Source: Acidobacteriaceae bacterium (GTDB taxonomy: Bacteria; Acidobacteriota; Terriglobia; Terriglobales; Acidobacteriaceae). Taken from it: DNA of 47,260 nt. The notes under the pieces were generated by a model that was given only the letters and a program-made list of their open reading frames with translations, ran no database searches and was not told the origin of the DNA. Below, piece by piece: positions 23 to 29,201 of the stretch; within the stretch, counting starts at the first letter, position 1, and every line of letters begins with the position of its first letter. The DNA lies in contig PLOG01000158.1 in the NCBI GenBank assembly GCA_003142935.1, forward strand, positions 2,935 to 50,194. The letters run 5' to 3'. The position numbers and the translations under genes were made by a program.

Positions 23-1516
23 TCAAAGCGCCGCCAGCAGCAGCGTAATCCCCAGTCCGCTCACTGACAGCACCGTCTCCATCACCGACCACGTCGCGAG
101 CGTTCCTTTCACATCCAGCTTGAACAGCGAACACACCAGCCAGAAGCCCGAGTCGTTCACATGCGACAGCAGAAGCGAGCCGCAACCGGTGGCCAGTACC
201 AGCATCTCCGGCCGCACGCCCATCTGCCCGGCCACCGGAGCCAGCACTCCGGAAGCCACCGCCATGGCCACCGTCGACGAGCCCATGCACACCCGCACCA
301 CCGCCGCCAGGGCCCAGGCCAGCACTAGGGGCGGCATGTGCGCTCCCAGCGCCAGCCCCACCGTCGCCTGCGCCGCACCCGAGTCGCGCAGAACCCCGCT
401 CAACCCGCCCGCCGCCGACAGAATCACCAGCACCCCGGCGATGGGCACAAACGAGTCCGCGGTCAGCCGCCGCAGCATGTCCGGCCCGTGATGTGGTTCG
501 CGCGGAATCCGGCCGCCCAGCGTAGCCAGCGCCACCAGCACCGCTAGCAGCATGGCCACATCTGGGTAGCCCAGCAGGTGCATCGCCTGGTTTGGAATCC
601 CACCCGGTGCAGTCACCGCATCGGCCCAGCTCCCCACAAAAATCAGCGCAATCGGCAGCAGAATCGCCACCAGCGCCAGCACCGCACCCGCCGGCGCCGG
701 CGCATTCTCCCTGGCGATGGGTGCCCCAGGTCCGGGGTCCCCACGGGCAGGTCTTCGTCCGTGGGGCGGAGGTCCCGCTTTTGGGACCTGGGATACCACG
801 CTCCCAACTGTCGCCACTCCCAGCTTCGCCTGTCGCCGCTCCCAACGCGGAATCAGTACCCAGCCCACCACCGGCCCAGCCAGTGCAGCCGCCGGCGCTC
901 CCACCAGCATTCCCCACAGAATCACGCGCCCGATGTCGGCGTGAAACAGGGCAGCCGCCAGCAGCGCCGATGGATGCGGCGGAATCAGCCCATGCGTAAT
1001 CGAGAGCCCCGCCAGCACCGGCAAGCCAACCAGAATCGGAGGCCGTCCACTGCGCCGTGCCGCCTCCACAACAATCGGAAACAGCAGCACCAGCCCCACC
1101 TCGAAGAACACCGGCATCCCCACCAGCAAGCTCAACCCCAGCAGCGCCCAGGGCAGCCCCTTCGGGCCGCAACCCTCAACGAGCGTCTTGCTCAGCGAAG
1201 CCGCTCCTCCGGAAGAAGCCAGCAGTTGCCCCAGAATCGCCCCCATCCCCAGGATGATGGCGATATGCCCCATCATGTTTCCCACGCCCACGGAGAACGA
1301 GAGCGGCACCTGCTTCAACGGCATACCCGACGCAATGCCCAGCCCCAAGGCCGCAATCGACAACCCCAGCGCCGCATGAAGCTTCAGCTTTACCACCAGC
1401 AACAAAAGCAGCAGCACCGTCCCAGCCACGCAGGCCAGCAGATACCAGTCATGAGCAGTTACAGCATGCACGTTCACCGGCAGATTATTCCACACAGACG
1501 CTGGATTGCGCACCAA
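23..1516 (-). CDS. GntP-family gluconate/H+ symporter-like permease containing an in-frame repeat-element insertion (start uncertain; TTG at 1516 or an internal GTG)
   Basis: Hydrophobic multi-TM protein with GntP-like motifs (IILGMGAILGQLLASSGGA, GLIPPHPSALLAA, CGSLLLSHVNDSGFW). Confidence 0.88.
   Translation of the reverse strand: MVRNPASVWNNLPVNVHAVTAHDWYLLACVAGTVLLLLLLVVKLKLHAALGLSIAALGLGIASGMPLKQVPLSFSVGVGNMMGHIAIILGMGAILGQLLASSGGAASLSKTLVEGCGPKGLPWALLGLSLLVGMPVFFEVGLVLLFPIVVEAARRSGRPPILVGLPVLAGLSITHGLIPPHPSALLAAALFHADIGRVILWGMLVGAPAAALAGPVVGWVLIPRWERRQAKLGVATVGSVVSQVPKAGPPPHGRRPARGDPGPGAPIARENAPAPAGAVLALVAILLPIALIFVGSWADAVTAPGGIPNQAMHLLGYPDVAMLLAVLVALATLGGRIPREPHHGPDMLRRLTADSFVPIAGVLVILSAAGGLSGVLRDSGAAQATVGLALGAHMPPLVLAWALAAVVRVCMGSSTVAMAVASGVLAPVAGQMGVRPEMLVLATGCGSLLLSHVNDSGFWLVCSLFKLDVKGTLATWSVMETVLSVSGLGITLLLAAL
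719..795 (+). repeat. Palindromic GGGTGCCCCAGGTCC...GGACCTGGGATA element inside the GntP CDS
   Basis: Near identical to the three copies at 7826-8198; nested inverted repeats. Confidence 0.9.
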
Positions 1517-1518
1517 AT

Positions 1519-1567
1519 GGGTGCCCCACCTACGCCACGTCTTTGTTTTTGTGGCTTAGGTGGGATA
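1519..1567 (+). repeat. Short palindromic element GGGTGCCCCACCT...AGGTGGGATA
   Basis: Same ends as the long element, inverted repeat with central tctttgttttt loop. Confidence 0.8.
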
Positions 1568-3029: not shown

Positions 3030-3078
3030 GGGTGCCCCACCTTCGCGGCGTCTTTGTTCTTGCCGCTAAGGTGGGATA
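3030..3078 (+). repeat. Short palindromic element GGGTGCCCCACCTT...AAGGTGGGATA
   Basis: Same family as 1519-1567. Confidence 0.8.
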
Positions 3079-7793: not shown

Positions 7794-8240
7794 GGTCTCT
7801 GACTGCGTGTTGTTGTACCAACTGTGGGTGCCCCAGGTCCGGGGCCCCCAAGGACAGGTCCTGGTCCTTGGGGTGGAGGTCCCGATTTTGGGACCTGGGA
7901 TAGCAGAAATTCAAGGCACGAAATCATGCGGTCAGATTCCTGGGTCTCTGACCGCGTGTTGTTGTACCAACTGGGGGTGCCCCAGGTCCGGGGCCCCAAG
8001 GACAGGTCCTGGTCCTTGGGGTGGAGGTCCCGATTTTGGGACCTGGGATAGCAGAAATTCAAGGCACGAAATCATGCGGTCAGATTCCTGGGTCTCTAAC
8101 CGCGTGTTGTTGTACCGACTGGGGGTGCCCCAGGTCCGGGGCCCCCAAGGACAGGTCTTGGTCCTTGGGGTGGAGGTCCCGATTTTGGGACCTGGGAAAC
8201 AATGAACTCAAAGCACGAAATCACACGGTCGGAAACTTAG
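7794..8240 (+). repeat. Three tandem ~148-bp units, each carrying one GGGTGCCCCAGG palindromic element (7826-7902, 7975-8050, 8123-8198)
   Basis: Unit starts ggtctct at 7794, 7943, 8091; near identical except the degenerate last unit. Confidence 0.95.
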
Positions 8241-8246
8241 GAACTG

Positions 8247-8852
8247 TTACTGTTTCTTGCCCGGCAGCGGAGCCAGGGCCGCGGCCCCGCCTTTTTGGTT
8301 CGCTTCCGCCGCCGCGTTCGCCGCCGGCTTCTTCCCGTTCAGAATATCCAGCGCCGCCGGAGGCAGCGGCTTGTCCGCGTTCGCCAGCAGCAGCGTCACC
8401 TGCCACATCTCCGTGTCCGTCAGCACCTTCTTGAACGACGGCATTCCTGTCAGCCGGATGCCATTCTCCACCTTCCAGTGCGTCTCGCCCGGCGGATCGT
8501 CGCTCACGCCCACCACGTCGCTGTTCTTGTGCTGCTCCCAGAGCTGCGGAGCCCTGGGGTACATCTGCCCCCCAAACGGCGAAGGCTTCTCATGGAATCC
8601 ATGGCAGGCCGCGCACTGGTCCCGGTAGATCTCCGCGCCGGCCACAAACGCACTCTCATCGGCTTGAACCGGCGGAGTCTTTACCATCTCGCTGTCAATC
8701 CGCGCATGCAGCGCAATTGCCGTGATCTGGCGCTCATGAGGAAACGGCGCATCCGCAACCGCAACCGGCGGATGGCCGAAATGGAACCACGCCAGCGCGG
8801 CGACGGGAACCAGAACGATCCCCAAAATAATTCCAAGCAGGACTCGACCCAT
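8247..8852 (-). CDS. c-type cytochrome domain protein (single CXXCH), membrane anchored
   Basis: MGRVLLGIILGIVLVPVAALAW anchor; DQCAACHGFHE heme-binding motif; GMPSFKKVLTDTEMWQVTLLL distal Met region. Confidence 0.88.
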   Translation of the reverse strand: MGRVLLGIILGIVLVPVAALAWFHFGHPPVAVADAPFPHERQITAIALHARIDSEMVKTPPVQADESAFVAGAEIYRDQCAACHGFHEKPSPFGGQMYPRAPQLWEQHKNSDVVGVSDDPPGETHWKVENGIRLTGMPSFKKVLTDTEMWQVTLLLANADKPLPPAALDILNGKKPAANAAAEANQKGGAAALAPLPGKKQ

Positions 8853-28713: not shown

Positions 28714-29201
28714 GCTGGACTGCGGTTGTTTCAAGATCAAGCGATCAAGGGGAATTCGGGCCAGTCGGCCTCAACCAGGGCGCAGGCGCGCCGCGGAGTT
28801 TCTTGAGCCGCCTGTACGGAAGAGTTTGCGGCATCGGGGATGAAAACCGGGTGCCCCATCCGATAACTCCTATCCAGGATTGCTTTCTCGCCTTGGATGA
28901 TGCTGACGTCCTTCCTTCAGTCCGCAGTCCATGGCATTCGCAGAGAATAACCGCCTCCCGGCGCACAATGGGAATAGAGAGGAAGAGCGCCCCAGCCGGA
29001 CTGATAACCCATGAAAAGAACCGCCCAAATCTCTCCCAAGTTCTCCGCCATCGGCTCGGATGCAGTTCAGCCGCTTTTCTTGCGCTCTTTCGGGCGAATC
29101 TTCTGCTCTTCAAGCCATTCAAATAGAAATGCTTATGGAGAAAATGCCCCCCCCTCCACTTTTCATCTTTTCGGCTGTGAAACTGTGAACCCCTATCGAA
29201 C

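Follow-up and report, generated by a model that had tools for sequence, protein, structure and literature searches.

How does a 77-bp palindromic repeat come to lie in frame within a permease gene, and what does it do there? The repeat was noticed in a 47,260-nt stretch of DNA (the window) from the 5.2-Mb draft genome of an Acidobacteriaceae bacterium (G000), and the original prediction saw in it a possible mobile, coding-tolerant palindrome that adds a Pro/Gly-rich loop to the protein. Our analysis makes it very probable that the 77-bp element is a RAYT-type non-autonomous mobile palindrome tolerated in a loop of GntP. The in-frame position and the mobility in the prediction stand, with the amendment that two nested palindromes are involved rather than one element.

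A palindrome within the gntP reading frame

The gene encodes a 497-aa protein from its annotated start, the first TTG in the ORF, and the true start may be further downstream. Its match to PF02447 (GntP_permease; 2.7e-108), together with the sequence itself, agrees with the predicted placement of the element inside a GntP permease. Gluconate-permease models match the ORF separately on either side of the element, as expected from the claim that normal permease sequence flanks it. Against the nearest orthologue (G070, 84% amino acid identity), dN/dS is ~0.15 upstream, 0.54 in the loop and 0.11 downstream. The gene is intact and constrained on both sides of the element.

In the gntP frame the element is read as SQVPKAGPPPHGRRPARGDPGPGAP, a Gly/Pro/Ala-rich peptide of ~25–26 aa. 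The loop that contains it sits between predicted membrane segments and is probably cytoplasmic, because an Arg-rich stretch precedes it (positive-inside rule); a sequence search retrieved no homologue of GntP with a solved structure. Across orthologues the loop is hypervariable in sequence and length, and it is Pro/Ala-rich in these too. Among the ~27 orthologues that have the loop, the 77-mer occurs in the gene of the window only and is missing from G070, and genomes without a detected copy of the element (e.g. G026, G042, G047, G057 and G067) do not have this loop sequence, in accordance with the prediction. The case is not unique, however, since the same loop was invaded in two other lineages. 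In G004 it contains a short family copy in the opposite orientation, read as VPQVPILGPG, and in G043 a short copy in the orientation of the window, read as SQVPTEGPGAP, of which a decayed shared copy is found in G014. Differences in stem type, length or orientation are the reason for counting these copies as independent.

Divergence of the loop is too great for a base-exact empty site, and none of the orthologues has a clean one; it is the comparison with the orthologues as a whole that points to an insertion at gntP itself. As 77 is not divisible by 3, the boundary of the insertion or a small indel must have restored the frame. Nothing indicates a function of the added loop, given that the site is hypervariable and relaxed.

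Composition and fold of the element

The same genome has many intact 35-bp REPs of the form GGGTGCCCC-AGGT-CCCGATTTTGGGACCTGGGATA, and the 77-mer corresponds to such a REP with a 38-bp hairpin placed after AGGT and the AGGT repeated (35+38+4=77; Table 1). The intact 35-bp REP is the empty form of the composite. Comparison at the sequence level shows a composite of two nested palindromes, both of them of mobile families.

Table 1. Coordinates in the window of gntP, of the composite element with its parts, and of related repeats.
Feature	Position	Strand	Description and basis
gntP	23..1516	-	GntP-family (gluconate:H+ symporter-like) permease, 497 aa; Pfam match and dN/dS
Composite 77-bp palindromic element	719..795	+	In frame, antisense to gntP; GGGTGCCCCAGG...CCTGGGATA
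Host REP, 5´ part	719..731	+	GGGTGCCCCAGGT; match to intact 35-bp REPs of the same genome
Nested second palindrome, 38 bp	732..769	+	CCGGGGTCCCCACGGGCAGGTCTTCGTCCGTGGGGCGG; also found singly, nested in other palindromes and within genes; malQ orthologues give an exact empty site
Host REP, 3´ part	770..795	+	AGGTCCCGCTTTTGGGACCTGGGATA; match to intact 35-bp REPs
AGGT, left copy of 4-bp duplication	728..731	+	Flanks nested palindrome
AGGT, right copy of 4-bp duplication	770..773	+	Flanks nested palindrome
Outer stem, 5´ arm	725..731	+	Paired with 786–792; RNAalifold consensus, 45 copies
Outer stem, 3´ arm	786..792	+	RNAalifold consensus, 45 copies
Inner 10-bp hairpin, 5´ arm	739..748	+	Paired with 757–766; two-sided changes at 5/10 pairs
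Inner hairpin, 3´ arm	757..766	+	Same covariation analysis
Composite copy	7826..7902	+	Non-coding; sequence match
Composite copy, 76 bp	7975..8050	+	Second unit of 148-bp tandem array
Composite copy	8123..8199	+	Third unit of 148-bp tandem array
49-bp REP, same tag family, other stem	1519..1567	+	Directly upstream of gntP
49-bp REP, same tag family	3030..3078	+	Downstream of fructose-bisphosphate-aldolase-like ORF

The REP has the tag GGGTGCCCC and the foot TGGGA; on one strand the foot is GGGTGC, on the other TAT. Its family consists of multi-copy, mostly intergenic palindromes that resemble REPs in length (~20–40 bp) and in having a conserved foot. The tetranucleotides GTAG/GTGG or CGTC are absent from the 5´ foot of the stem, and the family is for this reason described here as REP-like and RAYT-associated, with a different tag. 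Family members were detected in 62 of 71 genomes of the same genus, whereas the other genera searched yielded none. In a 1.15-Mb sample of the source genome, made up of contigs picked for carrying matches, there are 63 exact GGGTGCCCCA tags, the commonest length being 35 bp; clearly intragenic tags are confined to gntP and uvrC. The element was predicted to be otherwise intergenic within the window. This agrees with the non-coding copy at 7826–7902, and two shorter members and a tandem array (~7794–8286; three 148-bp units with one composite element each) can be added to the picture. A single GGGTGCCCCA tag at 28849–28858 of the window has no recognisable partner arm.

The nested hairpin also occurs alone, within other palindromes and in genes. 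An exact 4-bp repeat flanks it at the same boundaries in four of 13 independent contexts, as against 0 of 20,000 permutations, a fixed-length target-site duplication of the kind seen in MITEs. The clearest case is malQ (PF02446) of the window's genome, in which PPHGRRPVHGDPGL is inserted after RIAGL. At exactly 42 nt (38 and the 4 duplicated), the insert preserves any frame. In 17 of 19 malQ orthologues the alignment over the site shows a gap of exactly 14 codons and no copy. One locus (L309) has a small local difference without hairpin, and the insert of G000 (L270) recurs in G065 (L293) as a similar insert at the same place. These sequence relationships show both palindrome families to be mobile. 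Other palindromes with a nested 38-bp hairpin are found at L261 (~6.0 kb), L148 and L248, and hairpin DNA may be a preferred target of this module.

When aligned, 45 long copies from the genus fold as a three-way junction, in which an outer stem of 7 bp, which is constant, is joined to an inner hairpin of 10 bp and to a small one on the 3´ side. Shuffled sequences fold less well than the element, and two-sided pair changes in the inner and 3´ hairpins are well above those in shuffles and slid controls. The difference in the inner stem between the gntP copy and that at 7826–7902, taken in the original prediction as a sign that the hairpin is maintained, is real. However, CACGG/CCGTG, as found in gntP, is the majority stem and CAAGG/CCTTG is rare, so the compensatory change belongs to the lineage of the element, and an origin within gntP is rejected. 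Maintenance of the hairpin is accordingly seen at the level of the family, with no sign of selection inside gntP. All six reading frames are open in both the 77-mer and the 35-mer, which is the case for 5% and 16% of the respective shuffles. Selection for six open frames was also rejected: in sequence so rich in GC the property is only slightly unusual, and stops occur in other stem types.

RAYT genes and the origin of the gntP copy

The genome of the window has eight matches to the Y1-transposase domain, and four of its genes (L064, L065, L066 and L068) pass the cut-off of the RAYT model NF047646, one of them also matching the TnpA-REP structure 4er8 (E 1e-6). The motifs are HVH/HIH and Y[MI]HRNPV in L065, L066 and L068, and HVH and YIENNPV in L064. 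The features of RAYT/TnpA-REP proteins are thus in place: a Y1_Tnp domain with HUH, the catalytic Tyr and the class-2 Y---NP motif. L065, L066 and L068 are each flanked by an inverted pair of identical or nearly identical REPs that share the tag of the family, each pair with its own stem type, whereas L064 has a REP on one side only. RAYT genes adjoining REPs, here between inverted copies, correspond to the published arrangement (PMC2817692; PMC3733652). One stem type per RAYT may explain the coexistence of several REP stem types; no RAYT with exactly the REP stem of the composite was found.

We infer that a RAYT moves the composite element. A 38-bp mobile hairpin would have interrupted a REP, with duplication of AGGT on insertion, and the composite would then have spread as a single unit within the genus, most likely moved in trans, as single-stranded hairpin DNA, by RAYT/TnpA-REP proteins. 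One copy would have entered the hydrophilic, hypervariable loop that joins the two halves of the GntP permease, where a preserved frame and a Gly/Pro/Ala-rich peptide would have let the gene survive purifying selection. The protein with its insert is probably made and working, and the insertion is probably near neutral. Orientation is suggestive of single-strand transposition. On contigs C55, C109 and C5 of G000, neighbouring REPs agree in orientation in 30 of 37 cases (p 2e-4), and the GGGTG strand is on the C-rich strand for 42 of 52 REPs, with gene-direction skew as a confounder. Such coherence along contigs and the correlation with GC skew would be expected of single-strand transposition tied to replication. 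Replication-strand orientation as the explanation was set aside because of this confounder and because the two complete genomes offer few tags (5 and 14 matches).

The insertion could instead have been domesticated, with the Pro/Gly-rich loop altering regulation, stability or partner binding of GntP and being kept by selection. Invasions of the loop in at least three lineages left the frame open each time, and the frames used lean towards Gly/Ala/Pro-rich readings, although this bias is equally expected if insertions are simply tolerated. Free variation in length and sequence of the loop among orthologues, the raised dN/dS there and the confinement of the 77-mer to one genome all speak against domestication, which we consider very unlikely. 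A role of the hairpin at the DNA or mRNA level in gntP (pausing, attenuation, RNase protection or protein binding), for which it would be kept, could draw on the folding of the element and on the family covariation. This covariation is, however, accounted for by selection for mobility or by shared descent of the element. With a majority stem in the gntP copy, giving no sign of selection in situ, and no 77-bp hairpin at this place in any other orthologue, such a role is highly improbable.

That there was no insertion, and that the likeness of an ordinary GC-rich coding loop to the repeat is due to chance or conversion, might be argued from the Pro/Ala-rich loops of the orthologues. The gntP element, however, differs from the genus consensus at just 3 positions in 75 bp, has exact tags at both ends and is absent from the nearest orthologue. 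A genome-wide search, proposed with the prediction, found the element to be abundant outside the window, with eight further copies at 94–100% identity to that at 7826–7902 or to each other's consensus. Chance resemblance is excluded by these copies and by the tag pair GGGTGCCCCA...TGGGATA, for which shuffles give an expectation of 0. This reading is refuted by the existence of a multi-copy family and by the comparison of orthologues, and its probability is negligible. Tolerance of a mobile palindrome thus remains by far the best account of the gntP locus.

In-frame palindromes in other genes and in known systems

Many other genes of the genus contain these palindromes in frame. The long element is read through in priA, queA, rlmN (two species), mnmG, rimO, rimM and the gene for a family-4 uracil-DNA glycosylase, as well as in that of a protein resembling a mechanosensitive channel by eye only. 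By itself, the 38-bp hairpin lies in frame within dinB, malQ and a transporter gene (loci of the set from priA to dinB: L239, L071, L072, L081, L074, L247, L089, L097 and L182). The most extensive series is in uvrC (L187–L236; in the window's genome G000:C55, ~97.6–100.1 kb), with 0–3 REPs per gene. One to three REPs are placed in two linkers at 21 of 51 loci, and the length of the ORF varies from 621 to 865 aa among full-length genes. All 32 REPs, of several stem types, are sense-oriented and 31 use the frame starting with Gly-Ala-Pro; the number of events is not 32, as some REPs are common to sister species.

In-frame REPs have been described before. REPs within genes, many of them in excision-repair, recombination and pseudouridine-synthase genes, were suggested to be perhaps not fortuitous, and recB has insertions at the same site in two Xanthomonas (Di Nocera 2013; PMC3733652). 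Our examples show an apparent lean towards DNA-repair and RNA-modification genes. The palindromes in the UvrC linkers and in PriA, DinB, UDG, QueA, RlmN, MnmG, RimO and RimM might be targeted or selected, e.g. to tune repair or mutability, instead of just being tolerated, with gntP as a minor case. The same functional classes being reported for unrelated REPs in other phyla is what recommends this possibility, which we regard as unlikely. The 51 uvrC loci with 0–3 REPs constitute a natural experiment for the suggestion made in 2013.

The family shares with GTAG/CGTC REPs and their RAYTs (Di Nocera 2013, PMC3733652; Nunvar 2010, PMC2817692) the short, high-copy and mostly intergenic palindromes, the several stem types per genome, the RAYT genes by REPs, the in-frame insertions and the lean towards excision-repair and RNA-modification genes. 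It differs in its end tag (GGGTGCCCCA...TGGGA instead of GTAG/GTGG/CGTC) and in the second mobile hairpin nested within the 5´ arm, which comes with a 4-bp duplication and makes a three-way junction. Rickettsia palindromic elements, by description also mobile and palindromic, lie in frame in unrelated protein-coding genes and add a peptide that the host protein tolerates; these are ~150 bp, and the review describes no RAYT association (PMC10969869). The 38-bp hairpin resembles MITEs in that it codes for nothing itself and leaves a short duplication of the target, but it is much shorter than usual MITEs, and 38+4=42 nt makes its insertions frame-neutral. In the limited literature covered, we found no description of this tag family, of a nested palindrome with a 4-bp duplication, of an exact 42-nt empty site or of a genus-wide uvrC series. 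A palindrome within a palindrome, with its frame-neutral module, helps to explain the survival of coding copies, and the exact filled and empty sites show a way in which new protein segments can arise from tiny mobile hairpins.

Linker 1 of UvrC also holds other repeat-like peptides, KGTGFSPYIN...GALAPEG, VILSESQRRRVEGSAVA and RDQGSGIRDQG (L201, L217, L218, L231 and L220), as if it collected many repeat families.
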